Assembly (NCBI GenBank): GCA_021773015.1
Contig: JAJFKW010000004.1
Location: 248,001 to 312,000 of the forward strand
Reading direction: 5' to 3'
From: Woeseia sp.
GTDB taxonomy: Bacteria; Pseudomonadota; Gammaproteobacteria; Steroidobacterales; Woeseiaceae
Length of the DNA: 64,000 nt
The first letter of the stretch is position 1. Each line of letters starts with the position of its first letter. The position numbers and the translations under genes are program-made. Below, one piece after another: positions 13,432-55,747 of the stretch. A model generated the notes under the pieces. It did no database searches. It was not told the DNA's origin and saw only the letters and a program-made list of their open reading frames with translations.

Positions 13432-13453
13432 TATTTGCTACCAATCAAAAGCG

Positions 13454-18841: not shown

Positions 18842-18882
18842 CACGAATTCCTGTCAACATTGGTTCGATCGATTGCGCTGAA

Positions 18883-19689: not shown

Positions 19690-19696
19690 TGGTACC

Positions 19697-29839: not shown

Positions 29840-29850
29840 GCTAACTCCCA

Positions 29851-31152
29851 CTATTTTCGATCATCAATTACGCGCACCGCTTTCCCTTCTGATCGCGGTA
29901 CCTTGCCGGGTTCGCGGACCTCAATAGTCGTGCTCACACCGACATAATTTTTGATTTCACCTTTGAGTGAAGTGCCAATGGCGTCTAACTGTTCGAACGC
30001 GCCGATATTTTCAGCCTCAACAATGACAGTCAATGTGTCAAGGTTGCCGCTTCGCGACACACGTAATTGATAATGCGGAGCGAGCCCGCTTTGTTGTAGT
30101 ACGCGTTCTTCGATTTGCGTTGGAAACACATTGACGCCTCGAATGATCAACATATCGTCGCTTCGTCCAGTAATCTTATCCATGCGTCTCATCGGTCTTG
30201 CCGTCCCAGGCAGCAGACGGGTTAGGTCCCGCGTCCGATAACGAATGATGGGCAACGCCTCTTTAGTCAATGAGGTAAACACAAGCTCACCCATTTCTCC
30301 GTCGGCCACGGGATCTCCCGAAGCGGGATCAACGATTTCCGGATAAAAGTGATCTTCCCAGATGGTTGGTCCATCCTTAGTTTCTATACACTCGTTTGCA
30401 ACTCCTGGACCCATCACCTCGGACAATCCATAAATATCCACGGCGTCCAAGCCACAACGCGACTCGATTTCGTGTCGCATCTGCTCGCCCCAGGGCTCCG
30501 CGCCGAATATGCCAACCTTTAGCGATGATGTTGCAGTGTCAATTCCTTGACGTTCAAATTCATCGGCAATATTCAGCATGTACGAAGGTGTCACCATGAT
30601 GATGTCGGGTTCGAAATCTTGGATAAGCTGAACTTGTTTTGGTGTCTGTCCGCCGGACATCGGGATCACCGTAGCGCCCAGTCGTTCCGCGCCGTAGTGT
30701 GCCCCCAAACCACCCGTAAACAAACCGTAGCCGTATGCCACATGGATAATATCGCCTGGCTGGCCACCGCCCGCGCGTATTGATCGCGCAACCACATTGG
30801 CCCAGGTATCAATATCATTTTGCGTGTAGCCAACCACCGTCGGCTTGCCGGTCGTGCCGCTAGACGCGTGAATTCTGACGACCCGTTCGCGCGGCACCGC
30901 GAAAAGACCGAAAGGATAGTGTGCCCGCAAGTCGCCTTTTTCGGTAAACGGAAACAACGCCAAATCCTGCAACGTCTTTAGATCTGAGGGCAGTACACTC
31001 TTGCTGTCACATTTCGCTCGAAACGCTGCGACGTTATCGTAAGTATGCTGCAACGTCTTTTGCATTCGCTCGAGCTGCAATGATCGGAGCTCATCAATAC
31101 TTGCTCGTTCGATGGGATCCAGCGTGGCTGGATCTGCGTTGCGACAGACCAT
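29851..31152 (-). CDS. paaK: phenylacetate-CoA ligase
   Basis: 433 residues, the usual PaaK length. Motifs include the nucleotide-binding SSGTTGKPTVVGYTQ at about 95-110, the DIYGLSEVMGPGV adenylation motif, and YRTRDL with the following C-terminal GRSDDMLIIRGVN. It converts phenylacetate, ATP and CoA to phenylacetyl-CoA, the true substrate of PaaABCE and ligand of PaaX. Start ATG at 31152 faces paaX over a 93-bp region with TAGTATCA repeats. Phenylacetate could be supplied by the penicillin acylase and amine dehydrogenase systems to the right. Confidence 0.95.
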   Translation of the reverse strand: MVCRNADPATLDPIERASIDELRSLQLERMQKTLQHTYDNVAAFRAKCDSKSVLPSDLKTLQDLALFPFTEKGDLRAHYPFGLFAVPRERVVRIHASSGTTGKPTVVGYTQNDIDTWANVVARSIRAGGGQPGDIIHVAYGYGLFTGGLGAHYGAERLGATVIPMSGGQTPKQVQLIQDFEPDIIMVTPSYMLNIADEFERQGIDTATSSLKVGIFGAEPWGEQMRHEIESRCGLDAVDIYGLSEVMGPGVANECIETKDGPTIWEDHFYPEIVDPASGDPVADGEMGELVFTSLTKEALPIIRYRTRDLTRLLPGTARPMRRMDKITGRSDDMLIIRGVNVFPTQIEERVLQQSGLAPHYQLRVSRSGNLDTLTVIVEAENIGAFEQLDAIGTSLKGEIKNYVGVSTTIEVREPGKVPRSEGKAVRVIDDRK

Positions 31153-31245: not shown

Positions 31246-32244
31246 ATGTCGGCAAGCATCGCAACCGAAATTCGATCCGGCAGTTTTCCGACTGCAACAG
31301 AGTCACTGATCAGGGAATTTCAGTCTAGAAGGCCATTACGAACAGGCTCACTCATCATCAGCGTTTTTGGTGATGCAATTGCTCCCCACGGTGGTGCCGT
31401 TTGGCTGGGCAGTCTGATCAATGCACTAGAACCATTTGGCATCAATCAACGACTTGTAAGAACCTCCGTTTTCAGGCTAGCAAAAGAAGGTTGGCTTGAT
31501 AGCGAGCAGATTGGGCGGCGCAGCTACTATTCACTTTCCGCACAAGGGCGCACGCGTTTTAATGAAGCCAGTCGCCGCATCTACAGCGAACCGCGAAAAG
31601 CTTGGTCCGGTGATTGGTGCTTAGTGTTATTGGCCGGCGTTAGCGGTGAATATCGTGAAGACATTCGAAAAGCACTGGGATGGATTGGTTTCGCACCATT
31701 TTCCGCGAATGTCCTCGCTCATCCATCGCCAGATTTAAGTATGGTGGAAGAAGAGCTTGCACAGTTGCCGGGCAACGATCAGATCTTGGTTATGCGCGCG
31801 AACGCGTTTAGCGACCGCAAACGATACCTGAAGGAATTGGTTAAAGGGGCCTGGGCACTGGAGGATTTGGACGTTCGATATGCAGAGTTTCTGCAGCGAT
31901 TTCGGCCGGTTTACCAGGCAGCGCGCAATTCTCGCCGTGCGTTGGACACCGAATTGGCGTTTCGCGTGCGGACACTTTTGATTCACGAATATCGAAAAAT
32001 ATTGCTGCGCGACCCGTTCCTACCCGACGAACTGCTTCCTGAACGATGGAACGGCATTGCTGCTTACCAGCTGTGCCGAAATATTTATGCGTTGGTTGCC
32101 GGTCCGACTGAGGCGTATTTGACAGCGTCCCTGGAAACTGCCGATGGGCCGTTGCCTCCTGCCGATCCCGCATTTCACTCTAGATTCAGCGGTCAATCGG
32201 AACATAGTACAAAAAACAATAAAGAACACAATAAAAGACAATGA
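31246..32244 (+). CDS. paaX: phenylacetate-responsive transcriptional repressor
   Basis: 332 residues with the PaaX architecture: N-terminal winged helix (RTGSLIISVFGDAIAPHGG, then NQRLVRTSVFRLAKEGWLDS and the wing GRRSYYSLS), a central Cas2-like ferredoxin fold (SGDWCLVLLAG...) and a C-terminal helical region with FLPDELLPERWNG and AYQLCRNIYALVAG. PaaX represses paa operons until phenylacetyl-CoA binds. The C-terminal tail, about 25 residues rich in Asn and Lys, is extra. It overlaps paaI by four bases (ATGA) and is divergent from paaK. Confidence 0.95.
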   Translation: MSASIATEIRSGSFPTATESLIREFQSRRPLRTGSLIISVFGDAIAPHGGAVWLGSLINALEPFGINQRLVRTSVFRLAKEGWLDSEQIGRRSYYSLSAQGRTRFNEASRRIYSEPRKAWSGDWCLVLLAGVSGEYREDIRKALGWIGFAPFSANVLAHPSPDLSMVEEELAQLPGNDQILVMRANAFSDRKRYLKELVKGAWALEDLDVRYAEFLQRFRPVYQAARNSRRALDTELAFRVRTLLIHEYRKILLRDPFLPDELLPERWNGIAAYQLCRNIYALVAGPTEAYLTASLETADGPLPPADPAFHSRFSGQSEHSTKNNKEHNKRQ

Positions 32245-32675
32245 GCAGCGAAGAAGCGATGCGCGTAGCTAGGGCCTGCGCTGACCAAATGTATGCAGAA
32301 GACGACGCGTCTAAGAGCCTCGGAATAACGGTGGAAATCAATGCCCCTGGCGTTGCTACTGCCAACATGACTATCCGTGCAGATATGGTTAACGGGCATA
32401 ACATCTGCCATGGCGGTCTTATATTTACGCTCGCCGACAGTGCCTTCGCGTTCGCTTGCAATTGCTATGATGAGATAACGGTGGCAGCCGGTGCCGATAT
32501 CAACTTTGCCAGGCCTGCGAAATTAGGTGACCAATTGACGGCCGTCGCGTCGGAGATTCATCGCGGAAAACGTGCCGGCGTCTATGACGTCGTGGTCAAG
32601 GACCAGGAAGGCCGGCTAATCGCTGTTTTTCGCGGCCGCTCGGCAGGTCTCGGGAAACCAATGATATCGACATAA
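32241..32675 (+). CDS. paaI: hydroxyphenylacetyl-CoA thioesterase
   Basis: 144 residues of the PaaI hotdog type. NGHNICHGGLIFTLADSAFAFACN holds the conserved HGG and the catalytic Asp of the central helix, and AGADINFARPAKLGD the following strand pair. PaaI rescues CoA from dead-end hydroxyphenylacetyl-CoA species. It is translationally coupled to paaX. GTGATAC directly after the stop may be part of the operator for the downstream paaABCDE operon. Confidence 0.92.
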   Translation: MSSEEAMRVARACADQMYAEDDASKSLGITVEINAPGVATANMTIRADMVNGHNICHGGLIFTLADSAFAFACNCYDEITVAAGADINFARPAKLGDQLTAVASEIHRGKRAGVYDVVVKDQEGRLIAVFRGRSAGLGKPMIST

Positions 32676-32770: not shown

Positions 32771-33760
32771 ATGTATACACAAGGTTTAGATCAAAAAAGC
32801 GACGCTGTAGATCCGCAGCGCGATGATGAGGTACGGCTGCGCCAATTTCAGGCTCGAATAGACCAGGAAGAGAAAATCGAAGCCAAAGACTGGATGCCTG
32901 ACGCGTATCGCAAAACGCTGATACGGCAGATTTCTCAGCACGCCCACTCTGAGATAGTCGGCATGTTACCGGAAGGTAACTGGATTACGCGCGCACCGAC
33001 GCTTCGGCGCAAGGCCATACTGCTCGCAAAAGTTCAGGATGAAGCCGGTCATGGACTTTATTTGTATAGCGCAGCTGAGACTCTCGGTGTTTCGCGAGAT
33101 GAACTCATCGATCAAATGCTCACCGGCAAAGCGAAGTACTCCAGCATATTTAATTATCCAACACTAACTTGGGCCGACATCGGTGCAATTGGTTGGCTGG
33201 TCGATGGCGCGGCCATCATGAATCAAATTCCACTTTGCCGGTGTTCTTACGGCCCATATGCCAGAGCAATGGTTCGAGTGTGCAAGGAAGAGAGCTTCCA
33301 CCAACGACAGGGCTACGAAATCATGCTGACATTGAGTCGTGGCTCTGACGAACAAATACGCATGGCGCAGGACGCGTTGAATAGGTGGTGGTGGCCATCA
33401 CTAATGATGTTTGGCCCTGGCGATGCGGATTCGAAGCACAGCGCACAATCAATGGCGTGGAAAATTAAGCGATTTAGCAATGACGAGCTGAGGCAAAAAT
33501 TTGTCGACGTGACCGTTCCGCAAGCGGACTATATCGGCCTGAAAATGCCGGATCCAGACCTGCGCAAGAATGATGAAACTGGCCATTACAAATATGGCGA
33601 AATTGACTGGGAAGAATTCATGCAGGTACTTGCTGGGAATGGGCCATGCAACCGCGAGCGCCTCGAATCGAGACAACATGCGCACGCCGAAGGTCAGTGG
33701 GTAAGAGATGCGGCAACCGCATATGCGGAAAAACAAGCAGCACGCCAAGCGGCTGCTTAA
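32771..33760 (+). CDS. paaA: ring 1,2-phenylacetyl-CoA epoxidase, catalytic subunit
   Basis: 329 residues. The ferritin-like di-iron carboxylate helices carry the two ExxH sites, in DEAGHG at about residue 95-100 and in EESFHQRQG at about 175-183, plus upstream Glu residues in HAHSEIVGM. PaaA, with PaaC, binds phenylacetyl-CoA and makes the 1,2-epoxide using O2. The gene opens the paaABCDE operon, in canonical order. A TATGCG-like -10 and AT-rich upstream region precede it. Length and motifs are fully standard. Confidence 0.97.
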
Positions 33761-33769
33761 GGAAATACA

Positions 33770-34057
33770 ATGATTCGTCAGGACTGGCCACTATTTGAAA
33801 TATTTATTCGGGCAAAATCCGGATTAAGTCACCGTCATGTTGGCAGCTTGCACGCCAGCGATTCAGCCATGGCCATCGATCACGCACGCGACCTTTACAC
33901 CCGTCGCGGCGAAGGTGTCAGCATCTGGGCAGTGGAATCCAAGTCGATTGCAGCTTCCGATCCGGCCGAATCATCCGCCTTATTCGAACCTGCTGAAGAC
34001 AAGATCTATCGCCATCCGACATTTTACGAAGTGCCGGATGGAGTCGAAAACCTATGA
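33770..34057 (+). CDS. paaB: phenylacetyl-CoA epoxidase subunit B
   Basis: 95 residues, the normal PaaB size, with WPLFEIFIRAKSGLSHRHVG and YTRRGEGVSIWAV. PaaB is the small bridging subunit that joins two PaaAC heterodimers. It starts 9 bp after paaA and overlaps paaC by four bases (ATGA). Confidence 0.96.
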   Translation: MIRQDWPLFEIFIRAKSGLSHRHVGSLHASDSAMAIDHARDLYTRRGEGVSIWAVESKSIAASDPAESSALFEPAEDKIYRHPTFYEVPDGVENL

Positions 34058-34839
34058 CCACTCGCAATCAATCGAGTTGCGACGAGAGCGAGATGGAGTT
34101 ATTCAGCTACTTGCTGCGGCTGGGCGACAACGCGCTTATCTTAGGGCAACAACTCGGCGCATCGGTAGGAAAAGGCCCGGAATTGGAAGAAGAGATGGCG
34201 CTGGCCAACTTTGCGCTGGATTACATTGGTCAGGCGCGGCTATTTTTCGGCCTCGCCGCTGAAATTGAAGGCAAAGGCCGCAACGAAGACGATTTGGCGT
34301 TCTTACGAGATGGTATCGATTTCACAAATGTTTTGCTCGTTGAACAGCCAAATGGCGATTTTGCCCAGACGATTGCACGACAGTTTTTCTTTGAAAGCTT
34401 CTATCTCCTGCAATTGCGAGCGCTTCGGCACTCTGAAAATTCGAAGCTCGCGGAAATTGCTGCGAAAGCCGGGAAAGAAATTCAGTATCACCTTCGACAT
34501 ACGCAACAGTGGCTGGTCCGCTTAGGTGACGGAACCGTCGAAAGTCATCGTCGCATGCAAGCTGGTGTCGACCGGCTATGGCAATACACTGGAGAATTAT
34601 TTGAGATCGATGATCTCGATCGATGGGCGATCGATGCAGGTATTGGTGCGGATTTAGCTGAAATTCGCCAGACCTGGCTTGCCGAGATTAAAAGCGCATT
34701 TGTGGAAGCAACACTCGAAATGCCGGCAGGCGAATGGATGGCGGGCGGTGGCAAGCAAGGACGCCATAGCGAGCATCTCGGTTACCTGTTGGCAGATCTG
34801 CAGTTTTTGCAAAGGGCATACCCGGGCGCCGCCTGGTAA
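34054..34839 (+). CDS. paaC: phenylacetyl-CoA epoxidase subunit C
   Basis: 261 residues, structural ferritin-like partner of PaaA lacking the metal. LLRLGDNALILGQQLGASVGKGPELEEEMALAN is spread over the first helices, with ALDYIGQARLFFGLAAEIEG and KEIQYHLRHTQQWLVRLGDG following. The C-terminal GGGKQGRHSEHLGYLLADLQFLQRAYPGA region is characteristic of PaaC. The N-terminal about 12 residues (Ser/Asn rich) are an unremarkable extension. Confidence 0.96.
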   Translation: MTTRNQSSCDESEMELFSYLLRLGDNALILGQQLGASVGKGPELEEEMALANFALDYIGQARLFFGLAAEIEGKGRNEDDLAFLRDGIDFTNVLLVEQPNGDFAQTIARQFFFESFYLLQLRALRHSENSKLAEIAAKAGKEIQYHLRHTQQWLVRLGDGTVESHRRMQAGVDRLWQYTGELFEIDDLDRWAIDAGIGADLAEIRQTWLAEIKSAFVEATLEMPAGEWMAGGGKQGRHSEHLGYLLADLQFLQRAYPGAAW

Positions 34840-34855
34840 TGACTGCGTATAAATC

Positions 34856-35365
34856 GTGACCGTTGAAACTCATGACCTTGCGGCGGAGACTATTGCGTTT
34901 GCGCTGGCGAGCAAATTGCCAGATCCGGAAATCCCCGTTCTTACGTTGGGCGACCTTGGTGTCATTCGCTGGGTTAAAGTGAGTAGTGAAAACAATGTAA
35001 CAGTTGGCATTGCACCAACTTACAGTGGCTGTCCAGCTACCGAATTTATCGAATCAAGTGTGATTGAGGAGCTCAAGAATAACGGCTTCGGAGATGTGCA
35101 AGCGGAACGCGTGTTGAGTCCAACCTGGACGACCGACTGGATCAGCGATGAAGGTCGGTTAAAATTACACGACTACGGCATCGTACCACCGGACAAGGCC
35201 GCTGAGTCGAAACGTGCGTTATTTCACCGTGGGCTCGACATCGCCTGCCCACGATGCGGCAGTCAACAAACTTCCAAGGTAAGCGAATTCGGGTCTACGC
35301 CCTGCAAGTCGTCGTACAAATGCACTGCTTGTCTTGAGCCTTTCGAATACTTTAAGTGTTTATAA
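34856..35365 (+). CDS. paaD: PaaD, Fe-S assembly-like maturation protein
   Basis: 169 residues: an N-terminal MIP18/DUF59-like domain (PDPEIPVLTLGDLGVIRWV, YSGCPATEFIE) and a C-terminal zinc-ribbon-like domain with CPRCGS, PCKS, CTAC and the final Cys. PaaD is needed for a functional epoxidase, probably in cluster assembly. It starts with GTG at 34856; an ATG overlapping the paaC stop gives only six codons in another frame (MTAYKS then stop), so it is not the start. Confidence 0.93.
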   Translation: MTVETHDLAAETIAFALASKLPDPEIPVLTLGDLGVIRWVKVSSENNVTVGIAPTYSGCPATEFIESSVIEELKNNGFGDVQAERVLSPTWTTDWISDEGRLKLHDYGIVPPDKAAESKRALFHRGLDIACPRCGSQQTSKVSEFGSTPCKSSYKCTACLEPFEYFKCL

Positions 35366-35386
35366 GGTAATCGGCTACTGCAAACT

Positions 35387-36460
35387 ATGCGCAAATTTCA
35401 TCCTCTTACTATCGAACACAAGGCCGCAGAAACGGCGGACTCAATCGTATTGACGCTTGCCGTTCCCGACGAATTGGAGCAAGAGTTTCAGTATGTACAG
35501 GGACAACACTTGCCTGTCCGGGCTGTGCTTGACGGCAGTAGCGTGCGCAGAACGTACTCGATATGTTCAAGTACAGGTGAGCAAAGACTACGCTTAGGTG
35601 TTCGTGTTCAGCCGCAAGGACAATTTTCCAATCATCTCGCAAACGACGTGAGCGTTGGCGATACATTGGAGGTTATGCCACCGTACGGCCGGTTCAGAAC
35701 GGAGGTTTCAGCGAAGCAGTCACGCACCTACGCCGCTTTTGTCGCGGGTAGCGGTATCACCCCAGTACTTTCGATTTGCAAAACGATACTTGAAACGGAG
35801 CCTACTAGTCGCGTATTTCTATTTTATGGGAATCGCAAACGATCAACGACAATGTTCATAGAGGACTTGCAAGCCTTGAAGAACTCATATGGCGATCGTC
35901 TTGCTTTGCACTTTGTTATGAGCCAAGAGGCAACCGATATCGATCTATACGCAGGGCGACTACAGGGCGACAAAGTGAAATCGCTACACGACGCATTTAT
36001 GCAGCACAGCCGCGCAGATGAGATCTTCATTTGTGGCCCGAACCCGATGATTGATGATGTCACCTCGGCATTGACAGATCTCGGCTACGATGCAGCGCAC
36101 ATTCATTCTGAACGGTTTCGAGCGGGACTTAAGGGCGAGAAGTCTGCAAAGCCTATTGCGACAAATGTTCCAAGCGGTGGCACCGATGTCAGCATCATTA
36201 TTGATGGACATCGACAATCATTTCTAATGCAGGCAAGCGACTCCAATATTCTCGATGCAGCGCACAGCCATGGTCTTGATCTTCCCTACTCTTGTAAGGG
36301 TGGCGTCTGTTCAACTTGTCGATGTCGACTTACCAAGGGCGAGGTCGACATGCCGCTTAACTATGCACTCGAACCGTGGGAATTGGAGAAAGGCTTCATT
36401 CTAACCTGCCAAAGTAGCCCAAAGACGCCAGAGATCGAATTGGACTACGACCAAACCTAG
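35387..36460 (+). CDS. paaE: phenylacetyl-CoA epoxidase reductase subunit
   Basis: 357 residues. The N-terminal FAD domain has RRTYSICSS, the NADP-binding domain has VAGSGITPVLSICK and ICGPNPMIDDV, and the C-terminal plant-type 2Fe-2S ferredoxin domain has CKGGVCSTCRCRL plus a last Cys in LTCQSSP. It passes electrons from NADPH to the PaaA di-iron centre. Last gene of the operon; it converges on the DUF6491 gene with 18 bp between the stops. Confidence 0.96.
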   Translation: MRKFHPLTIEHKAAETADSIVLTLAVPDELEQEFQYVQGQHLPVRAVLDGSSVRRTYSICSSTGEQRLRLGVRVQPQGQFSNHLANDVSVGDTLEVMPPYGRFRTEVSAKQSRTYAAFVAGSGITPVLSICKTILETEPTSRVFLFYGNRKRSTTMFIEDLQALKNSYGDRLALHFVMSQEATDIDLYAGRLQGDKVKSLHDAFMQHSRADEIFICGPNPMIDDVTSALTDLGYDAAHIHSERFRAGLKGEKSAKPIATNVPSGGTDVSIIIDGHRQSFLMQASDSNILDAAHSHGLDLPYSCKGGVCSTCRCRLTKGEVDMPLNYALEPWELEKGFILTCQSSPKTPEIELDYDQT

Positions 36461-37120: not shown

Positions 37121-39517
37121 TCAATGTGAATAGGTTACGACATCCTCTGACGCGGCGTTGTCAGCAACGTCCGCAGCGTAAAACCAGATTCGCTTTTTGC
37201 CAAACGATTGGTATAGATCGAATTGGTCGCTGTAGTGCGGGTCCCTTTGTCCGCTAGAGCTGACAAAGCCGCTTTGTCCTGGCGGCGCCACTTCGTATGC
37301 AACGATTGCGCCTGGCTTCATCACAATCATGTTGTTTTCCGTGCCCCGGTTTTGTTCAATTGACGCAATCAGAGTCTCATCGTTCCCGCCTTGCGGTATG
37401 CCGAGAAAGTTCACCATTGAAAACGGCCGGCTGGCAACCGGCAGACGCAAACTTGCTACTTCCTGGCCTTTTTCTGTGGCTAATTCCATCAACGACGCTT
37501 TCAAGGCACTTGCAATAATCGTGCTCGCTGGTTCACCGTTAAAAATGTCATATTCCACACGACCGTTGAGCGCTTCAACTATCAATTTCACTGCTGGCGG
37601 AATATTGGTACCTGCACCCGTTGGTTTATCATGCGTTGGATAACCGGTTGCAGAAAAATATGTGTAAGCATCGCCCAAGTCGTCGGCCAATGTGCGATGA
37701 ATTAGCTCGCCTATGAAGGTACGAAAAATTGCCGTTGCGGCCCCGTCATAAAATCCGTCAGTATCGGAATCCGTAGAGCGGCCATCCCATGCTTGCAATA
37801 TATTGTTCGCTTCACGTAACCCGGCGTCTTCAGTATCTTGTGTTGCAAGTTCTAGAAACTCCAGGAAATACGGAGCGTAGACATCTGCAAAGGAACTCGA
37901 TTCGATGACAGCCCAAGCTTCGTCCGCGGTAAATTTCTTTTTAGACGTCAGCTCCGCGTGCAAGAAGTCCACGCGATCCGCCGCTGACCAACTATAGAAG
38001 AAGAAATCTGGGTTCATCACGCCTTGGCCCGGTTTGTTGTTCCAATTTGCGAGATAGCCGGAGCTTGGATTTAGGACATGCGGATTGGCTGTTTCAATTG
38101 GCATTCGACCCAGCCACTCCATGTCGCCCGCACCGCTAATTGGAAGACGATTGTCGTGCCCAGCGGCACGTTGCGGAAATTTTCCACCGTGAAAATATCC
38201 TATATTTCCGTCGACATCCGCAAAATACATATTGACGTTTATCGCAGATTTTTCTGCATACGATTTCCACTCATCAAAGTCACCGGCCCACGTCGCCGAT
38301 AGCCATGCCAATAGCGAATCTAACTCCCCACCGTCCCATGCTCTTTTCTTTGCAAATGCGACCTTGGCGGCCTCGTCGGCGTGAATTATCGGACCGTGGA
38401 TCGATCGACGCACCTCGAATTGGAGATCGGTTGCACCTTTGATTTCGATCAATTCAACCCTACTCTCAAATTTTAGTAGCTTATTGTTATGCCAATATGT
38501 GCTTCGGTCATCCGGATTTACTTTCTCCGCATAAATATCCACGATATCGCTCGCACCCCAGGTGCTTCCCCAAGAAATATTTGCGTTGTGGCCGAACATA
38601 ATCATCGGATAACCAAACGGCGTATTTCCAACAACGTCTATGCCCGCGCCGTGCATACCTACTGAATAAACGTAGGAAGGATTAAACCATCCGAACTGGG
38701 GTCCGTTCACAAGAATGGAGTTTGCGCCAGAAACTTTGCTTTTTCCCAAAATATAGCAATTACTCATGCCCGTGGTGACAGCGCTTTTAGGACTGAGACT
38801 GGTAGTTGCAATCGCAATGCTATTGCTGCTCCCACCTGAATTCAACGCAAGAGAATCGTAAGCAGATTCTGACCAGTCTTCACTAGGAATGGTCGTTGGC
38901 GCATTATCGGTAAACCTTGGATTGAGCGCGTCGAACAATAGCGAACCTTTCACGGCACCATGTTGTTGCTGAAGTGCACTGAGAATCTTGGCGTTGTCGA
39001 TCTCAGTATTGAAGTCTCCGTAGCGATTATTCATCGTGCCAATGAATATCATCGCGACGTCATATTCGTCCCACGTTGCCGGTGCAAAATCGTGGTCGCC
39101 AAATTGCTTCGGCATTAACTCATCGGGAGACTCTTTGATCTTCTCCAGCCATGCGTTGATGCCGGCCGCGTAGCCCTCGAATACATCCAGATCCTTCGCC
39201 GCCAGCGACTTGATTTGTTTTCGAATTGACGCTGGGTCAAATAACGTTCGGGTACTTTTGTCGTAATCCACATAACTGGGTCCGAGCACTGCCGCAACCG
39301 TTCCTTGCGTGCTACGCCTTGCCATTTCCATCTGAAACAATCGATCTTGAGCGATGGAATATCCATAACCAAAATACAGTCCATAAATGTCGTCGGCATA
39401 AATATGCGGCATTCCAAACGTGTCTCTAACGATTCGTACAGAACCCGTTGTTTTTTCGTTCGCTGCCGAGCACGATGCGATAAAAACAAGTAATAACGAA
39501 AACACGATATTTCTCAC
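37121..39517 (-). CDS. penicillin G acylase orthologue, predicted lipoprotein
   Basis: 798 residues in one precursor. A lipoprotein signal ends in FIASC (Cys16, followed by Ser). IVRDTFGMPHIYADD and AQDRLFQMEMARRSTQGTV are those of penicillin G acylase alpha chains. The beta chain should start at Ser252 in TGMSNCYILGKSK, the N-terminal nucleophile freed by autocleavage; NGPQFGW (Gln23 of beta), GNTPF, ISWGST and ANWNNKPGQG (catalytic Asn) follow at the standard distances. Compared with the E. coli enzyme as I recall it, beta Ala69 is Trp and beta Phe71 is Ala, both near the acyl pocket. The enzyme would hydrolyse phenylacetyl- or similar arylacetyl-amides in the periplasm. GTG at 39517 is chosen as start (GAGG upstream); the longer frame crosses a terminator. 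Confidence 0.92.
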   Translation of the reverse strand: MRNIVFSLLLVFIASCSAANEKTTGSVRIVRDTFGMPHIYADDIYGLYFGYGYSIAQDRLFQMEMARRSTQGTVAAVLGPSYVDYDKSTRTLFDPASIRKQIKSLAAKDLDVFEGYAAGINAWLEKIKESPDELMPKQFGDHDFAPATWDEYDVAMIFIGTMNNRYGDFNTEIDNAKILSALQQQHGAVKGSLLFDALNPRFTDNAPTTIPSEDWSESAYDSLALNSGGSSNSIAIATTSLSPKSAVTTGMSNCYILGKSKVSGANSILVNGPQFGWFNPSYVYSVGMHGAGIDVVGNTPFGYPMIMFGHNANISWGSTWGASDIVDIYAEKVNPDDRSTYWHNNKLLKFESRVELIEIKGATDLQFEVRRSIHGPIIHADEAAKVAFAKKRAWDGGELDSLLAWLSATWAGDFDEWKSYAEKSAINVNMYFADVDGNIGYFHGGKFPQRAAGHDNRLPISGAGDMEWLGRMPIETANPHVLNPSSGYLANWNNKPGQGVMNPDFFFYSWSAADRVDFLHAELTSKKKFTADEAWAVIESSSFADVYAPYFLEFLELATQDTEDAGLREANNILQAWDGRSTDSDTDGFYDGAATAIFRTFIGELIHRTLADDLGDAYTYFSATGYPTHDKPTGAGTNIPPAVKLIVEALNGRVEYDIFNGEPASTIIASALKASLMELATEKGQEVASLRLPVASRPFSMVNFLGIPQGGNDETLIASIEQNRGTENNMIVMKPGAIVAYEVAPPGQSGFVSSSGQRDPHYSDQFDLYQSFGKKRIWFYAADVADNAASEDVVTYSH

Positions 39518-39536
39518 GACGCCAGCCTCTGTAAAA

Positions 39537-39564
39537 GAAAAGGGCGCACATAGGCGCCCTTTTC
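39537..39564 (-). terminator. intrinsic terminator after TonB receptor gene
   Basis: GAAAAGGGCGC and its exact complement form an 11-bp stem with loop 39548-39553; on the minus strand it is followed by TTTTAC. It lies 17 bp after the receptor stop and 19 bp before the acylase GTG, so some readthrough could couple the two genes. Confidence 0.85.
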
Positions 39565-39581
39565 GAAATTGACATTTATCA

Positions 39582-41858
39582 TTAGTTGACATGGTAATTG
39601 AAGTTTACGCCAACGGTGCGAGGCGGCCCCCAAACACCGATACCACCTGGGCCAATGACGTACATATGCGCAATGTAATCTTCATCAGTAAGGTTTTTGG
39701 CCCACACGGCGATATCCCATTTTTGGCTTGGCGCCGTCCAGCCGACTCTAGCATCGAATAGATCGGAGTCATCTTGGATTATTCGATCATCCACGAAGTC
39801 AGTGCGCTGCTCGTCCGTATGACTAAACGTAAAGCGGAAATCAAACTCGCCGTATTCTGTGGGTAAATTATACACAGCAGATATGTTTGCAGAGTTTTCG
39901 GGCGCCCTGGTCAGCGTCTTACCGGATGCGTCAACAGTACCCGCAGCGACCTCAAACACCAGATCTTGAGTCTCGGTGTCCAGATAGGCGTAGTAGCCGT
40001 CAATGGAGAAGTTTTCGCCCATAAACCACTGAAATTCCAACTCCGCGCCCATTATGTCGGCAGATCCAACGTTGGTTGTAACAAATGTGCCAAACGCCGA
40101 ATTCGCTACAGGTCCGAAGCGAACCACTTGCAAATCTTCATAGTCTGTGTAAAAAAGCGTCGCATTCATTCGGACAGTATTCTCTACAAAATCACCTTTA
40201 AGGCCAATCTCAAAATTTGTTGCAGTCTCCTGATCTACGGGTAGGGAGGCACTGGACTCGACGCCTTGAGAGCCGGCGAAACCGCCACTCTTAAATCCTC
40301 TTGAAATAGAGCCGAAGTACATTACGTCGTCGTTCGGGGTGTACTGAATCGCAACCTTTGGTGAAAAATCACTCCAGCTATCTGACGGAAAGACCTCGAA
40401 GACCTCGGCGATTATCGCCAGGCTGCCGCCCACTCCGCCGCACGGTCCAAAATTCTCCCACTTCGTGCCAATAACGGATGGATCGTTGGCTGCCACAAGC
40501 GCGCAATTCACTGACTCGGCATTGTAGTCTTTCTCATCATTCGTAAATCGGCCACCAAACGTTAGCTGCCACTGATCGCTAAATTGGTAAGTTCCGTGCG
40601 CATAGGCCGCGTAACTCGTCGTTTCGTTAGCTGTTCGTGCATACTCATTGCCAATAATTGCCTGGCTGCCTACATCGGTTATGCGGAAAGGCGATGCCAT
40701 ATCGTCAAACGATCCGGCCTGTGTAATTCTAAATATCTCAACCCGGTTCGTATCTTCAGTAAAGAAAAAGAGTCCAGCTGTGTACTCAAACTTGTCACCA
40801 AGAGTCGAGGTCCAGCGAAATTCCTGCGAAAACGTATCGATGTCTTCGACGATGTCATCCACAACTTCGTCAAATGGCAACCCGAGTCCGCCCAATGGGG
40901 CACCAACGGATAACATTTCCCAATCGGTTTCAGCCTGTCGGACTGCAGTAATACTCGTCAGTACGCCTTTCTCGAACTCAAACTCACCGGTGAGGCTAAT
41001 GCCGCTCGCCTCACGTTTAGAGAAGCCGTCTGCAGATGCCGCATTTTGCCGGGCATCCGTAATACCGTTCTGCGCCAATATGGCCTGCAACGGCGCGTTG
41101 TCCACCACTGGGGTACGGCCCATATCCTCACGATCATCATCCATGAAATCCGCTGACAACAACCAACTCGATGAATCACGCTCCCAAAGCAACTGTGCCC
41201 GTACAGAAGACTGATTTTCATCCTGCTGATCTTTATTCAGAACCAGGTTTCGAACGTAGCCATCGTGCTCCCGATGCGTAGCCGATATTTTGCCACTCAC
41301 GTTGTCGCCTATTGGCCCGCTGATAAGGCCGCGATAACGCAGTATCCCCTCATTACCGACCGTAGCACCTACTTTAGCTGCAAATTCCTGCGAAGGCTTG
41401 GACGTAACTACACTGATGGCTCCACCGATCGCATTGCGCCCAAACAAAGTACCTTGTGGACCACGCAGTACTTCGACTCGCTCTAAATCAAACATATCGA
41501 AATTGATTGCTGCGCCACGACCGATATACACGCCATCTAGAAACAGTGCGACTGAGTTATCCAAACCAGCGCCATCGTCTGCCGAGCCGATACCACGCAT
41601 TGATATATTGGCTTGACCCGGCGCGAACTCTGCATAGGCTAGACCCGGCGTATATTGCGCGATACTCCCGGCGTCAAAAATATCGGCTTTCTCGATAATT
41701 TCGGAACCGAGCGCAGTAACGGAAACTGGCACCGATTGAATGTTTTCTTCGCGATGCTGCGCTGTGACGACGATTTCCTCTACGTGTTGAGCAACCGCTG
41801 ACCCAACTACTCCAATGCAGCCAACTAGGGCCGCACATAAACTTGTGATTTGTTTCAC
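39582..41858 (-). CDS. TonB-dependent receptor
   Basis: 758 residues. Signal peptide (VKQITSLCAALVGCIGVVGSAVAQ region), TonB-box-like EEIVVTAQ, plug domain with QSVPVSVTALG, SMRGIGSADDG, LERVEVLRGPQGTLFGRNAIGG, and a 22-strand barrel ending in aromatic residues (VGVNFNYHVN). Start GTG at 41858 has AGGGGGA upstream and gives a normal signal peptide; the longer frame adds 27 residues. The receptor brings a bulky, probably aromatic ligand across the outer membrane. Location directly before the penicillin acylase gene suggests amide substrates. A TTAACACGTTAA palindrome lies about 115 bp upstream. Confidence 0.93.
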   Translation of the reverse strand: MKQITSLCAALVGCIGVVGSAVAQHVEEIVVTAQHREENIQSVPVSVTALGSEIIEKADIFDAGSIAQYTPGLAYAEFAPGQANISMRGIGSADDGAGLDNSVALFLDGVYIGRGAAINFDMFDLERVEVLRGPQGTLFGRNAIGGAISVVTSKPSQEFAAKVGATVGNEGILRYRGLISGPIGDNVSGKISATHREHDGYVRNLVLNKDQQDENQSSVRAQLLWERDSSSWLLSADFMDDDREDMGRTPVVDNAPLQAILAQNGITDARQNAASADGFSKREASGISLTGEFEFEKGVLTSITAVRQAETDWEMLSVGAPLGGLGLPFDEVVDDIVEDIDTFSQEFRWTSTLGDKFEYTAGLFFFTEDTNRVEIFRITQAGSFDDMASPFRITDVGSQAIIGNEYARTANETTSYAAYAHGTYQFSDQWQLTFGGRFTNDEKDYNAESVNCALVAANDPSVIGTKWENFGPCGGVGGSLAIIAEVFEVFPSDSWSDFSPKVAIQYTPNDDVMYFGSISRGFKSGGFAGSQGVESSASLPVDQETATNFEIGLKGDFVENTVRMNATLFYTDYEDLQVVRFGPVANSAFGTFVTTNVGSADIMGAELEFQWFMGENFSIDGYYAYLDTETQDLVFEVAAGTVDASGKTLTRAPENSANISAVYNLPTEYGEFDFRFTFSHTDEQRTDFVDDRIIQDDSDLFDARVGWTAPSQKWDIAVWAKNLTDEDYIAHMYVIGPGGIGVWGPPRTVGVNFNYHVN

Positions 41859-41973
41859 TTCGAATTCCCCCTGAACCCTTGCACAAACGAACATCAATAA
41901 AATCGAATCAAAACACCGGTATTGTCGAGCCGATGCCATACCGTTGAGACTACCGTCAAAATGGTAGATTTAA

Positions 41974-42163: not shown

Positions 42164-43642
42164 TCATTCAGCGTTTTCGAGAATTTCCTCTATGGCCAAA
42201 GCAACCGCGAGAATTATTGCATCAGCACCTGCCGGCCCTTCTAGGTCCAGCCCAACCGGCAAGCCACTAGCTGTCATACCAACCGGTATTGAGATCGATG
42301 GTAATCCTGCGATTGTTGCTTGTTCGGTGTTCTGAATGTACGCCGGAAATGTCGGAACGCGTTGACCGTTGAGTTCGACTGTTTCGTCGCTGCCTGATTT
42401 TGGCCTCGCAGGCAAAATCGTTGTCGGAAAAATCATGCCATCGAGATTGTTGCTGGCAAAATACTGTTGCATCAGTTGCTGCATAGTCTTTCGCGCTTCG
42501 AGTGCTGCGGCGTATGCCTCGTCGTCAATTGGACCGCCATCTGCAAGCATACCGAAAATACTCTTTACATCGGCACTTGCAGTCTTACTGGCCAGTTCTT
42601 CGTAACTAACGTTCGTACCCTGGGCATCCAGGTACTCTGGAAGCTCTCGCACGACTTCATGCAAAACGATTGGAAAGCCTGTTGCCAAGATTAGATCTGC
42701 GATGCCATGAATATCTGTTTCGACCAACGTGATGCCAGCATTCTGCAGTTCTGCTAAGGCGTTATCGACTACCTCGGCCAATTCGACATCGAGATTGTTG
42801 AAGAAATAATCGCGAGGTACACCCAACCTGATCTTCGTTACGATTTTGAATGCAGGGACTCTCTCCCCGACGATGATTTCGTGCAATAGAATAACGTCAG
42901 ATACGTCTCTCGCCATGAGACCCACAGTGTCTCGCGTCGAGGAGATCGGGGTGACCGCGCTACTGTCGTAGAGACCGCTGCTTGGCCGGTAGCCGACTAT
43001 TCCAGTAAGCGCCGCCGGAATTCTGACCGAACCGCCGGTATCCGTTCCCAGCCCAGCAGGTGCAAGACCGGCTGCAATCGCGGCGGCCGTACCTCCACTA
43101 CTACCTCCCGCAAACATGGATTCATTATGCGGATTACCAACAGCACCAAAGTGTGCATTGTTGCTGGTTACACCGAATGCCAACTCATGCATATTTGTTT
43201 TTCCCAAAACGAATGCGCCGGCTGCCTGAAGTTTTTCGACAATTGGATTGCTGGTTTCAGGCACATAGTTCAACAGTGAAGGTGTGCCTGCGGTATTGGT
43301 CATTCCAGCGACATGGATGTTGTCTTTGACAACAATGGGTATGCCAAGCAATGGTGGGTAGTCTTTGTTGACACCAATTCTCGTATCAGCATCCTTGGCT
43401 GACTTTAGTGCCGATTCTTCGCCAACAGATATAAACGCGTTCAAGTCTCGGCTGCGGCTCGCGTTTTCAAGGTAACTTTGCATTAACGTCGCGCTGGTGA
43501 TCTCTCCGTTCGACAACGCTCGCTGAATATCTCGCACTGTCATGCTCGAAACATCGAATTCTACTGTCGGGTGTTCGGCATCCTCAGTGCTACAACTCAC
43601 CAAGCATAAGACTATTATTGCACTCGCGATAAATTGCTTCAT
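42164..43642 (-). CDS. amidase-signature hydrolase, predicted lipoprotein
   Basis: 492 residues from the ATG at 43642. Signal peptide with lipobox LVSC (Cys17, next residue Ser), so probably anchored to the outer membrane. The Ser-cisSer-Lys triad of the amidase-signature family is visible: Lys106 in PIVVKDNIH, Ser181 in GGSSGGTAAA and Ser205 in GTDTGGSVRIP, at the standard 24-residue spacing. It hydrolyses linear amides to acid and amine. Downstream of an aromatic amine dehydrogenase operon, an N-acyl arylamine substrate would make sense, giving an amine for the dehydrogenase and an acid for the symporter. Overall length and motifs are normal. Confidence 0.88.
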   Translation of the reverse strand: MKQFIASAIIVLCLVSCSTEDAEHPTVEFDVSSMTVRDIQRALSNGEITSATLMQSYLENASRSRDLNAFISVGEESALKSAKDADTRIGVNKDYPPLLGIPIVVKDNIHVAGMTNTAGTPSLLNYVPETSNPIVEKLQAAGAFVLGKTNMHELAFGVTSNNAHFGAVGNPHNESMFAGGSSGGTAAAIAAGLAPAGLGTDTGGSVRIPAALTGIVGYRPSSGLYDSSAVTPISSTRDTVGLMARDVSDVILLHEIIVGERVPAFKIVTKIRLGVPRDYFFNNLDVELAEVVDNALAELQNAGITLVETDIHGIADLILATGFPIVLHEVVRELPEYLDAQGTNVSYEELASKTASADVKSIFGMLADGGPIDDEAYAAALEARKTMQQLMQQYFASNNLDGMIFPTTILPARPKSGSDETVELNGQRVPTFPAYIQNTEQATIAGLPSISIPVGMTASGLPVGLDLEGPAGADAIILAVALAIEEILENAE

Positions 43643-43646
43643 TTTT

Positions 43647-45194
43647 CTATCCCAATTCACTTTTTATGAGCTGTGCCCGGTATGCACTGCGATCCAACGC
43701 AGCTCGTTTGCTCCGATCCATCTTCGAAACCACAATGGTGACCGCAAACGCTGCAGAAACTGAAAATAGCGTTGGGTAAGCATAAGGAAATATAGCTGTT
43801 TCATGCCCCAACACTTGCACCCAGAACGTCGGGCTCAAGATCGATAGCGTGATTACTACAATCAATCCGCTCACCCCGCCAGCGACCGCGCCGCGTGTCG
43901 TCAGGTTCTTCCAAAACAGCGCAAGAAATATCGCGGGAAAATTTACGCTGGCAGCAATGGCCAGCGCAAAAGTTGAAAGAACACCAACGTTGATGTCCTT
44001 AACCAACAGACTTAAGCCGATCGCCGTCGCGCCAATCACAACCGTCGCAATCCGCGATACCCGCACTTCTTCAGAGTCGCTTAGCGACCCTTTGCGAATG
44101 ACTCGCGCGTAAATATCGTGAGCAACGCTCGCCGATGCTGACAAGAGGATGCCCGCTACGACCGCCAGTATCGTGGCGAACGCGACCGCCGACATAAAGC
44201 CGAAAAATGCTTCACCGCCAACCAATCGCGACAGGTGAACCGATACCATGTTTGCTCCACCGGAAATGTTTCCAGACTGATCGACATATTCAGTCTCACC
44301 GCTTAGGAGGGCAATGGCTCCGAATCCGACCAATACCAATGCTGCCTGGAAGTAGCCTATGAACACGACCGCGAATCCGATAGAACGGCGTGCTTGCTGG
44401 GCATCCGGTACGGTGAAAAATCGCATCAAGACATGCGGCAACCCAGCGGTGCCCAGTAAGAACGCCAAAGCCAGCGAGACAATACTGATTGGATCCTTGA
44501 ACATCACGCCGTGCGAGAAAATCGCTTTACCTCGCGGATGAACCTCCGCCGCTTTCTCAAACATTGCGTTGAGATCAAAACCAAACTGAGAGAGCGTGAT
44601 AATCAGTAGCACGCTGCCGCCGACAAGCAACAACACAGCCTTAATTACCTGCACCCATGTCGTTGCCAGCATCCCGCCGAATACGACGTATACCGTCATC
44701 AACGTGCCCACAATCAATACGGCAGAAAAATAGGGTAAGCCAAAGAGTGTTTCTATAAGGGAACCAGCACCAACCATTTGCGCAATCAAGTACGGTATTG
44801 CAACCGTCAATGTTCCCGCTGCGGCCAACAAACGTATTTTCTCAGGCTGCAGACGGTAGGCGACTACGTCTGCGAAAGTATAGCGACCCAAATTGCGCAA
44901 TCTGTCTGCCAGTACAAACAAAATCAATGCCCAACCAACGCTAATGCCGACCGTAAATAGCATCGCGTCGACACCGCCAATAAATATCAAGCCGGTCAAT
45001 CCAAGAAACGTTGCTGCCGACATGAAGTCTCCAGCCAACGCCAATCCATTCTGAAACCCTGTAATTTTTCCACCTGCGGTGTAAAACTCGCCGGTCGAAC
45101 GGGTACGCCTCGCTGCCCACCAGGTAACCCACAGGCTGGCAATAACGAACAAAACGAATATCCCAATTGCAACGACGTTGAGATCTTGGTCCAT
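43647..45194 (-). CDS. ActP-type sodium/monocarboxylate symporter
   Basis: 515 residues with about 13 membrane segments. STGEFYTAGGKITGFQNGLALAGDFMSAATFLG matches the ActP (acetate permease) branch of the SSS family in split stretches, and ATILAVVAGILLSASASVAHDIYARV the conserved late region. The partner DUF485 gene is adjacent, as for ActP-YjcH and the PaaL/PaaM-type phenylacetate carriers. It probably takes up a carboxylate such as phenylacetate made in the periplasm. It ends 4 bp before the amidase ATG. Specificity is inferred from context. Confidence 0.88.
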   Translation of the reverse strand: MDQDLNVVAIGIFVLFVIASLWVTWWAARRTRSTGEFYTAGGKITGFQNGLALAGDFMSAATFLGLTGLIFIGGVDAMLFTVGISVGWALILFVLADRLRNLGRYTFADVVAYRLQPEKIRLLAAAGTLTVAIPYLIAQMVGAGSLIETLFGLPYFSAVLIVGTLMTVYVVFGGMLATTWVQVIKAVLLLVGGSVLLIITLSQFGFDLNAMFEKAAEVHPRGKAIFSHGVMFKDPISIVSLALAFLLGTAGLPHVLMRFFTVPDAQQARRSIGFAVVFIGYFQAALVLVGFGAIALLSGETEYVDQSGNISGGANMVSVHLSRLVGGEAFFGFMSAVAFATILAVVAGILLSASASVAHDIYARVIRKGSLSDSEEVRVSRIATVVIGATAIGLSLLVKDINVGVLSTFALAIAASVNFPAIFLALFWKNLTTRGAVAGGVSGLIVVITLSILSPTFWVQVLGHETAIFPYAYPTLFSVSAAFAVTIVVSKMDRSKRAALDRSAYRAQLIKSELG

Positions 45195-45215: not shown

Positions 45216-45503
45216 TTAGTGCTGAGCGGTCAGCTTACCCACCACCCGCACGTAGACCACGGACAAAATGATCGACATCAGTATGATTGTGTAACCGGCA
45301 ACCATGCCCCACGGCATAGCGCTAGCGAAAAACGGTATTGCCAGGGCCCGCGGAAAATAATGTCCTGCCAGTGCATACGCAAGATAGCTGCCGCCAAGCA
45401 GAACAGTCAGCCCCCAGCGAAGCCGGCTGCGTTTTCGCAGCAATTGATGCAGCTCAGCGTTGTCCAATTCGGTGTTGGACGAAGCAGTAGCATCAGTATC
45501 CAT
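45216..45503 (-). CDS. DUF485 small membrane protein, symporter partner
   Basis: 95 residues with two hydrophobic segments and the DUF485 (YjcH) pattern: LRKRSRLRWGLTVLLGGSYLAY, then FYP-like FPRALAIPF, and WGMVAGYTIILMSIILSVVYV. Such proteins are encoded immediately before ActP-type symporters. ATG at 45503 is chosen; a TTG two codons before it is less likely. The gene overlaps the upstream cytochrome gene by about 11 bp. Confidence 0.85.
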   Translation of the reverse strand: MDTDATASSNTELDNAELHQLLRKRSRLRWGLTVLLGGSYLAYALAGHYFPRALAIPFFASAMPWGMVAGYTIILMSIILSVVYVRVVGKLTAQH

Positions 45504-45954
45504 CGTCAACTTTCAGCTGCTTCGCGAGGGCCGGCAATGTGCGCGCTATGTCGCTTAATATTTCGGCGCGCGTATTGTCTGGATCCTTTTCGAGGTGCGG
45601 TCGATACTCACTCACTTCGAGCTTCGTATACGGTTTGAAGTCAGCCGGCAACTCGTCTGCACTGTAGGCGGTAAGTAACCAATTCATCAATTCAGCAAGG
45701 TGCGCATCGGATAGGCTCGCCGTTGCAGCGCCAGGAACCTGCATAATAAATTTTCTACCTCGCTCCGAATGTTGGAAATAGCCAAGAAAACCGTGCATTC
45801 GCGGAACGTGACCGGGAACACCGGCAGCTTCTGGCAGGTGGCAACCCTGACAATGAATCAAATAATTAATGCGTGCTCGGTTTTCGTCGGCCGACGCACT
45901 AGAGAAAGCTGCCGCGAGCAAAAACCCAATGAAACATCCCGTCAGTCGGGCCAT
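45493..45954 (-). CDS. small c-type cytochrome
   Basis: 153 residues. N-terminal signal peptide (CFIGFLLAAAFSSASA), one haem motif CQGCH at about residues 35-39, and a Met in FIMQVPGAATASLSDAHL that could be the distal ligand. The C-terminal half has many charged residues. A single haem site rules out a MauG-type di-haem enzyme. It likely accepts electrons from the amine dehydrogenase, directly or through the second cytochrome, and passes them to the respiratory chain. It overlaps the second cytochrome gene by 13 bp. Confidence 0.85.
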   Translation of the reverse strand: MARLTGCFIGFLLAAAFSSASADENRARINYLIHCQGCHLPEAAGVPGHVPRMHGFLGYFQHSERGRKFIMQVPGAATASLSDAHLAELMNWLLTAYSADELPADFKPYTKLEVSEYRPHLEKDPDNTRAEILSDIARTLPALAKQLKVDDGY

Positions 45955-46460
45955 TTCGATCCGTGCATTTCCGCCAGGTTTTTTCGAAGCGCCGCAGCCG
46001 CGGCTGGCGACTTGTTCTCAATTTCGGCCATAAACGCCGTCACTTCATCTGTGCTAAATGGTGTCGAATCTTGTTTACTATCCGTAAGCTCAAACACTAT
46101 GTAGTTCAACACAGATGCAATGTTATCTGCAGTGAATGAACTCCCATGTCCGGGCATCACACCAGCAAACTGCGTACCGTCAATATTGATAGGCCCCATC
46201 AAACCGTAGGCGACAACTGCGACTAAATACTTCCTGCCGCCATCGAGGTTGGCAATTTGTTGTGCTCTGTCTCGAATTCTTGGGAACGCACCGGGAATGC
46301 CATTGCCGTCGGGCAAGTGACAGGCACTGCAGGGCCCGTAGGCCGCCGCAGAATAGCCGGCAGGTGTTGCGGCAGCGTCGGACTGCGAGGTGGAGTCTTG
46401 CTCAGCGTTTGTGCATGCTGCGGCACCAACTGCGAAAATTAATACGTAAAAAAATCTCAT
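45942..46460 (-). CDS. lipoprotein c-type cytochrome
   Basis: 172 residues with a short signal ending in GAAAC (Cys16, putative lipoprotein) and one haem motif CSACH followed by LPDGNGIPGAFPRI, typical of class I cytochromes of the dehydrogenase-associated type; Met in FAGVMPGHGSSFT is the probable distal ligand. It overlaps the TTQ light-chain gene by four bases (ATGA), implying tight co-expression. Role inferred as the primary electron acceptor in place of azurin or amicyanin, neither of which is encoded here. Confidence 0.87.
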   Translation of the reverse strand: MRFFYVLIFAVGAAACTNAEQDSTSQSDAAATPAGYSAAAYGPCSACHLPDGNGIPGAFPRIRDRAQQIANLDGGRKYLVAVVAYGLMGPINIDGTQFAGVMPGHGSSFTADNIASVLNYIVFELTDSKQDSTPFSTDEVTAFMAEIENKSPAAAAALRKNLAEMHGSKWPD

Positions 46461-46975
46461 TTATCTAATGCCGTCCCAATAACGATCGCTGTTGAACAAT
46501 TGTAAACTGCGCTCTTGGTTCCCAAACACCAATTGATATCGTTGGAGACATTTGGACGGTATACCGGCCGATCCCGTTCCGATCTCATACACAAGCAGTT
46601 GCCACACGAACTTTTGCCACAGCAGTCGTTATACGAAATGATGTAATGTTTGCCGTCGTCCGGGTTTTCGCAAGTCCCTATCCATGTAATCGGTGACATC
46701 TCAGTACCCGGCGGACAGGTATTCATGCTACCTCCGCAACAGCCGCACAAAAAGCCGTCGATCGCACAATACCGCCAATACTCGCAAGAATTCGGATCGC
46801 CAGTCTCCGCGGGTGCCGGATTACTTCCGTCCGCAGCGCGGGCAACCGGTAACAACGGAACCACGGCTGCTCCACCGATCACCACGCCGGCCATTTTTCG
46901 CAAGAATCCGCGCCGCGACGTATTTTGCGCGACATTTCTGGTTTGTGCTTCTGTCAATCGATCAAGCCATTTCAT
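46457..46975 (-). CDS. aromatic amine dehydrogenase, TTQ light (beta) chain
   Basis: 172 residues. The twin-arginine signal SRRGFLRKMAG lies at about 20-30. The mature part shows the cysteine-rich pattern of amine dehydrogenase small subunits, CEYWRYCAIDGFLCGCCGG, of the aromatic rather than methylamine type (GFLC-CCGG). Trp98 (SPITWIGTC) and Trp149 (NDINWCLGT) should form tryptophan tryptophylquinone, with Asp117 in SYNDCCG as catalytic base. The six disulfides require a dedicated folding system, usually MauE/MauD, and TTQ needs MauG; none is in the window. Start ATG at 46975 is used because the upstream TTG sits right on the AGGG site. Confidence 0.95.
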   Translation of the reverse strand: MKWLDRLTEAQTRNVAQNTSRRGFLRKMAGVVIGGAAVVPLLPVARAADGSNPAPAETGDPNSCEYWRYCAIDGFLCGCCGGSMNTCPPGTEMSPITWIGTCENPDDGKHYIISYNDCCGKSSCGNCLCMRSERDRPVYRPNVSNDINWCLGTKSAVYNCSTAIVIGTALDK

Positions 46976-46992
46976 ATCGGTCAACCCTTGAA

Positions 46993-53933: not shown

Positions 53934-53953
53934 TGATTCGCTCCAAACTGCGT

Positions 53954-55660: not shown

Positions 55661-55669
55661 CTCAAATAA

Positions 55670-55697
55670 AAAGGCCCGAACGAATCGTCGGGCCTTT
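55670..55697 (-). terminator. intrinsic terminator between second TonB receptor and sulfatase
   Basis: AAAGGCCCGA with its exact complement gives a 10-bp stem and 8-base loop (55680-55687), followed on the minus strand by TTATTT. It starts 51 bp after the receptor stop and ends 10 bp before the sulfatase ATG. The sulfatase has no room for its own promoter unless that lies inside or upstream of the hairpin. Confidence 0.85.
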
Positions 55698-55747
55698 GAT
55701 TGTGTTGCTATTTGAATTGCATTGCTTACTGCAGAATTTAAGACCGG

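Follow-up and report, generated by a model that had tools for sequence, protein, structure and literature searches.

A penicillin G acylase (PGA) gene of a marine bacterium, Woeseia sp., is situated between a TonB-dependent receptor gene and genes of phenylacetate catabolism. It probably serves a module that recovers arylacetyl amides in the periplasm and feeds them into this catabolism, and its product can be thought of as a predicted PGA-type lipoprotein with a repacked active site. (The window, to which all unprefixed positions refer, is the whole 64,000-nucleotide stretch of DNA that was analysed; L numbers designate the loci compared and their proteins.)

The acylase and its lipoprotein signal

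The PGA precursor, a predicted lipoprotein of 798 residues, is encoded on the minus strand at 37121..39517 from a GTG start. The longest reading frame of the gene (37121-39592, minus strand) opens with ATG. Of the two, the GTG at 39517 is the better start on sequence grounds, because it is preceded by AGAGG, its putative ribosome-binding site, and the precursor then opens MRNIVFSLLLVFIASCSAANEK, a signal sequence ending in IASC. The ATG at 39592 overlaps the stop codon of the receptor gene and would place 25 residues in front of the signal, and was rejected.

The product matches the Penicil_amidase profile (Pfam PF01804, S45) with 430 bits, and among proteins of known structure it is closest in sequence to the PGAs of Kluyvera, Providencia and E. 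coli. An AlphaFold model with 24 homologues as input (mean pLDDT 85.9, pTM 0.87) superimposes on the β chains of these three enzymes at 1.7-1.9 Å over ~545 residues with 38-41% identity; a structural alignment with penicillin acylases had been proposed as a check on the original prediction, and this one bears out the family assignment. Aligned to E. coli PGA, the catalytic N-terminal nucleophile β Ser1 (precursor residue 252; codon 38762..38764, minus strand), β Gln23, Asn241 and Arg263 and α Arg145 are all conserved, as are β Phe24, Phe57, Ser67, Thr68 and Trp154. (The statement that these signatures match PGA closely thus stands for the family and for Ser1 and Gln23; "closely" is too strong a word for ~41% identity to the E. 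coli β chain.) The low model confidence of precursor residues 224-249, directly before Ser252, is what we would expect of a spacer just ahead of β Ser1. The side-chain Ca2+ ligands of E. coli PGA, which we take to be α Glu152 and β Asp73, Asp76 and Asp252, are all present, while β-205, presumably a backbone ligand, is Asn in the window PGA and Pro in E. coli. By profile, fold model and catalytic residues, the gene encodes a genuine PGA-type Ser-Ntn amide hydrolase. Its family, catalytic residues, lipobox, clade and gene neighbourhood can all be read from the DNA itself. The same genome also has a second, distant gene of the penicillin amidase family (G000:C1:1404375-1406540, L001), ~26% identical over the matched part.

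The lipobox that had been noticed in place of the usual cleavable signal is upheld: IASC, with its cysteine codon at 39470..39472 (minus strand), follows a hydrophobic stretch and is followed by Ser at +2. A lipobox is kept in 9/9 PGAs that have Trp at β-69 (Trp69; see below) and are linked to a TonB receptor gene, seven by strict pattern and two, L042 (AAAC) and L043 (LHGC), by eye; none of the nine has Asp at +2. The window PGA is accordingly a predicted lipoprotein, presumably anchored at the outer membrane. No lipobox was found in four distant Trp69 proteins (L046, L062, L065, L074).

A repacked active-site wall in one clade

The codons at 38558..38560 and 38552..38554 (minus strand) specify β Trp69 and Ala71; the E. 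coli-type pair Ala69 and Phe71 is missing from the window PGA. The alignment to E. coli PGA is gapless from β Ser1 to beyond residue 200, which secures both assignments, agrees with what had been predicted for these positions and rules out their mis-assignment. A sequencing or alignment artefact was rejected as well, the same residues being present in independent genomes. We take β-69 to be an oxyanion-hole residue by way of its backbone NH, with Ala69 and Asn241 forming the oxyanion hole of E. coli PGA. Mutagenesis and modelling of the E. coli enzyme identify Phe71 as one of its main points of contact with the leaving group, and mutations of Phe71 altered activity, leaving-group specificity and enantioselectivity; β-386 is another leaving-group contact named for this enzyme (PMC3347531). 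Since β-71 contacts the leaving group and β-69 works through its backbone, the Trp69/Ala71 pair most likely signifies, in the first place, altered amine (leaving-group) specificity, the acyl pocket being affected less. At the equivalent of position 69 some other S45 acylases have Val, His or Arg (PMC11241749, Table 1), and Trp is absent from all structures tabulated there. With residue 71 varying among PGAs and residue 69 among S45 enzymes, Trp69/Ala71 does not exclude membership of the PGAs; on these alignments it marks a variant compatible with it.

The distribution of these residues was surveyed in a scan of genome collections, with an alignment of six relatives as query, from which the best 80 of 518 matches were kept. 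(What this means operationally is that the survey leans toward sequences resembling that of the window, and that Trp69 may occur elsewhere; the counts that follow all rest on this survey of the best 80 of 518.) Of the 85 PGAs aligned, 13 have Trp69 (that of the window and 12 others), and these 13 form one clade with an SH-aLRT support of 99 (the tree was made by a quick method, with SH-aLRT as its measure of support, without bootstrap). All 13 have Ala, Gly or Val at residue 71 and Val at β-177, and 11 of them have Met56. PGAs lacking Trp69 have Ala69 (71/71) and, with one exception, Ile177 (70/71), duplicates being left out; at β-386, Gly in 11/13 Trp69 proteins compares with Ser in 58/71 Ala69 proteins. 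(Two pairs of PGA proteins from different collections, L033/L085 and L035/L093, are identical, with end branches of zero length in the tree; one member of each pair was omitted from the duplicate-free residue counts.) On this evidence the active-site wall is repacked in one clade, with β Trp69, a small residue 71 and Val177, usually accompanied by Met56 and Gly386, and the single origin of the clade implies that the joint change was one evolutionary event and not repeated convergence. Later searches, outside the 85-sequence set, added two further Trp69/Ala71 sequences, L121 and L129. A Pseudomonas PGA-like protein (L134:8404-11112) has Val69 and Ala71 and falls outside the Ala69/Trp69 split.

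On the acyl side, the recognised pocket residues (α Met142 and β Pro22, Phe24, Phe57, Ser67 and Trp154) are the same as in E. coli, and the window PGA differs at β-56 (Val to Met), β-177 (Ile to Val) and α-146 (Phe to Tyr). Positions β-56 and β-177, which we take to line the acyl pocket, change clade-specifically among the aligned PGAs (best 80 of 518), which favours regarding them as the acyl-pocket changes of the clade. The original prediction had read Trp69/Ala71 as a sign that a different arylacetyl group may be preferred in this pocket, perhaps indole-3-acetyl or hydroxyphenylacetyl. So stated, the claim is poorly founded, as residue 71 belongs to the leaving-group subsite, residue 69 acts through the oxyanion backbone and the core of the acyl pocket is unchanged; yet some E. 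coli Phe71 mutants also shifted their preference for D-phenylglycine acyl groups (PMC3347531), and the changes at β-56 and β-177 argue in the same direction. Two neighbours of the gene could be cited in its favour too, an amidase that scores above the cut-off for indoleacetamide hydrolase and an indolepyruvate oxidoreductase-type pair, whereas the adjoining catabolic genes are those of phenylacetate, and no indoleacetate-specific genes were found among those checked. A preference for another arylacetyl group, such as indole-3-acetyl or 4-hydroxyphenylacetyl, is, on balance, unlikely, and an effect primarily on the amine side is the preferred interpretation of Trp69/Ala71.

Gene neighbourhood and proposed role

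The TonB-dependent receptor gene (39582..41939, minus strand; Pfam) lies beside the PGA gene, and a receptor gene is found beside or near the PGA gene in the 8 other TonB-linked Trp69 loci. Next to the receptor gene lies one (42164..43660, minus strand) for an amidase of the indoleacetamide hydrolase type (NF005688, 567.8 bits, cut-off 532), whose N-terminal region contains the lipobox LVSC. Amidase, receptor and PGA occur together in seven Trp69 loci (the window, L039, L040 and L042-L045), whose other flanking genes differ widely, and also in two Ala69 relatives, L093 and L117; the lipobox-like signal of the amidase is found in the window and in the 8 relatives that have this trio. Receptor and PGA are present in L041 and L005, contigs that end before the position of the amidase can be judged, and in the Ala69 sister clade a TonB receptor gene adjoins the PGA gene in most loci with enough flank. 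With 56 TonB plug domains in the 4.84 Mb of the window genome, the probability that receptor and PGA are adjacent by chance is a few percent. The Trp69 loci outside the TonB group (L046, L062, L065, L074, L129) have no adjoining paa genes, TonB receptor or amidase of this kind in the stretches read, and no gene was found common to the distant Trp69 loci beyond PGA and a weak LysR-type match.

Hairpins resembling terminators occur at 42142-42122 (in a scan whose hairpin total is no higher than in shuffled sequence) and between receptor and acylase, and with these the window locus may be split into several transcription units, a point against the proposed module. The second of them (39530-39563), a GGGCGC...GCGCCC hairpin followed by a T-rich stretch between the receptor stop and the PGA start, was recognised by eye and is absent from the list produced by the scan.

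On its other side the PGA gene is flanked by the genes of phenylacetate catabolism: paaABCDE, for phenylacetyl-CoA epoxidase (32771..36460, plus strand; profile matches, with paaE at 393 against a cut-off of 421, and paaB recognised by eye in translation at ~33770-34057, plus strand), the paaX regulator and paaI thioesterase genes (31246..32675, plus strand; TIGR02277 and TIGR02286, above cut-off), and paaZ-type and paaK-type genes (27779..31152, minus strand; Pfam). In L039 the first gene downstream of PGA encodes an orthologue of the paaK-type ligase. Farther away, genes for indolepyruvate oxidoreductase family subunits (20449..24098, minus strand; NF006179, 615.3 bits against a cut-off of 348, its partner TIGR03336 at 298 bits, below the cut-off of 651) would provide a route from arylpyruvate to arylacetyl-CoA. 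The surrounding segment, 17678-24098, also encodes an acyl-CoA dehydrogenase, an enoyl-CoA hydratase and an SDR, and the genes for oxidoreductase, SDR and hydratase are found again in L039 with their order preserved.

Association of PGA with these genes is not peculiar to the window. In 10 of 84 other loci the flanks of PGA contain two or more genes for epoxidase subunits, as against ~0.4% per locus expected by position (related hosts not being independent), and the hosts, Pseudomaricurvus, Collimonas, Variovorax, Herbaspirillum, Amaricoccus, Paracoccus and one MAG, are alpha-, beta- and gammaproteobacteria. A regulatory link through PaaX between pac and phenylacetate catabolism is attributed to E. 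coli W (Galan et al. 2004, as cited in PMC2265553). The proposal that proximity to paa indicates a role in amide catabolism is thus sustained, with paaABCDE, paaK, paaZ and paaX flanking the gene and the link recurring across proteobacterial classes, and a catabolic role of the window PGA is well supported by its gene context. (That the physiological substrate is still debated is a fair remark, except that the connection of pac, PaaX and phenylacetate is already in print, to go by the account in PMC2265553.) The notion that Trp69 always lies beside paa was discarded, the distant Trp69 genes having no adjoining paa; the lack of paa, receptor and amidase at those loci implies that Trp69 itself is not tied to phenylacetate. 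Three of the loci with the trio, L040, L043 and L045, have CoA-ligase, dehydratase-type or ferredoxin genes beside it and not paa, and these count against the scavenging module as the best explanation; they are hints of a reductive aromatic acyl-CoA route that might replace paa. The genes in question are, in L040 and L043 (L040:1846-5737, L043:729-4620), those of an acyl-CoA synthetase, a 2-hydroxyacyl-CoA dehydratase-type protein (HGD-D) and a BcrAD/BadFG-type activase, and, in L040 and L045 (L045:1-5647, 12751-13758), 4Fe-4S ferredoxin-type genes, with 2-oxoacid oxidoreductase subunits also in L045.

It is highly improbable that the main task of the acylase is to inactivate or scavenge acyl amides of other kinds (acyl-homoserine lactones or β-lactams, for instance) and that its position near paa is incidental. 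E. coli-type PGAs do hydrolyse penicillin G. Kluyvera PGA is reported to degrade acyl-homoserine lactones (Mukherji 2014, as cited in PMC5474475). Against this stand the aromatic acyl-pocket residues, kept in the window PGA, and the recurrence of the phenylacetate association across proteobacterial classes.

Beyond the amidase gene the minus strand encodes an ActP-like sodium/carboxylate symporter (43647..45194; NF006903, 718.7 bits, just below the cut-off of 750), two small c-type cytochrome-like proteins with CxxCH in overlapping frames (45493..46460), the light chain (46457..46984; PDB match, 164.6 bits, both TTQ tryptophans kept) and heavy chain (46993..48132) of an aromatic amine dehydrogenase, and finally (48129..49547; profile matches) an aldehyde dehydrogenase akin to phenylacetaldehyde dehydrogenase that falls below the cut-off for it. 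Methylamine dehydrogenase was dismissed as the identity of the TTQ enzyme, the heavy chain matching it with 93 bits as against 186 for the aromatic enzyme (PDB). The proximity of this set to PGA suggests that the released amine may be aromatic. The entire set, symporter to aldehyde dehydrogenase, recurs in L039; aromatic-type amine dehydrogenase and aldehyde dehydrogenase are also found in the Ala69-type L113. Amine dehydrogenase is lacking from most Trp69 loci, which likewise counts against the proposed module. In L113 (3884-12125) the dehydrogenase genes are joined by those for MauE and a MauD-like redoxin, and then by those for fumarylacetoacetase and maleylacetoacetate isomerase (homogentisate route). 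A separate cluster follows in the window at 49629-58102, with an APH-type kinase, a class III aminotransferase, an SDR, an MFS transporter, a sulfatase and a second TonB receptor.

Import, location, the flow to phenylacetate and the change of substrate are the parts of the proposed scheme that we infer. The PGA would be exported, anchored as an outer-membrane lipoprotein and self-cleaved into its α and β chains. Arylacetyl amides, imported by the TonB-dependent receptor, would be split by the acylase and the second predicted lipoprotein, the amidase, either at the outer membrane or within the periplasm; the arylacetate would be taken up, with the ActP-like symporter encoded nearby as the candidate carrier, whereupon PaaK would activate it and PaaABCDE and PaaZ would break it down. 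Were the amine released an arylethylamine, the aromatic amine dehydrogenase of the periplasm could, with the aldehyde dehydrogenase, convert it to more arylacetate. Taken one step further, the TonB-linked Trp69 acylases might be specialists for amides that join an arylacetyl group to an aromatic amine (of the N-phenethyl-phenylacetamide type, for example), both halves of which would yield phenylacetyl-CoA in the window genome; this extension is speculative and distinctly improbable. Among the papers searched, none names both amine dehydrogenase and acylase. In another account, amide hydrolysis and amine oxidation are separate feeder routes, clustered only because each ends in phenylacetate, with the acylase a general scavenger that has no particular amine partner. 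It agrees with the presence of the amine dehydrogenase in only three PGA loci, with the frequency of PGA-paa clustering without amine genes and with the scavenger role for Pac already published (as cited in PMC2265553), while the conserved clade-specific residues, which indicate a defined change on the amine side, speak against it; we give it somewhat less than an even chance.

Significance and relation to known acylases

PGA is among the most used industrial enzymes, and its natural substrate is uncertain. In combining a rebuilt active-site wall with an import receptor, a lipoprotein amidase and phenylacetate genes, the Trp69 clade offers a concrete system for testing the role of PGA. Were the specialisation for amides of aromatic amines true, it would define a natural substrate class of PGA, served by two lipoprotein hydrolases and by an import receptor of its own. 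For acylase engineering, the clade is also a natural example of Trp at the oxyanion-hole position in combination with a small residue 71.

The window PGA shares with that of E. coli the fold, β Ser1, Gln23, Asn241 and Arg263, α Arg145, the side-chain Ca2+ ligands, the predicted α-spacer-β layout and the link to phenylacetate catabolism. It differs in being only ~41% identical, in having a lipobox where the E. coli enzyme has a cleavable signal, in β Trp69/Ala71/Val177/Met56, and in the adjoining TonB receptor and lipoprotein amidase genes. The Trp69 PGAs of Nitrincola, Pseudomonas sp. Leaf48 and alphaproteobacterial MAGs (L046, L062, L065, L074) have Trp69, a small residue 71 and Val177 in common with it, and lack lipobox, TonB receptor and adjoining paa genes. 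The Ala69 PGAs of Cellvibrionaceae and related gammaproteobacteria (L073, L081, L084, L117, L093), the sister clade, have a TonB receptor gene beside PGA as in the window (and, in L093 and L117, the lipoprotein amidase also), together with Ala69, Phe, Leu or Tyr at 71, and Ile177. With the other S45 acylases (cephalosporin acylases, PvdQ, MacQ, D-succinylase) the fold and nucleophile are common at ~20% identity; the equivalent of residue 69 varies among them, and the Trp of the window PGA is found in none of the structures tabulated in PMC11241749.
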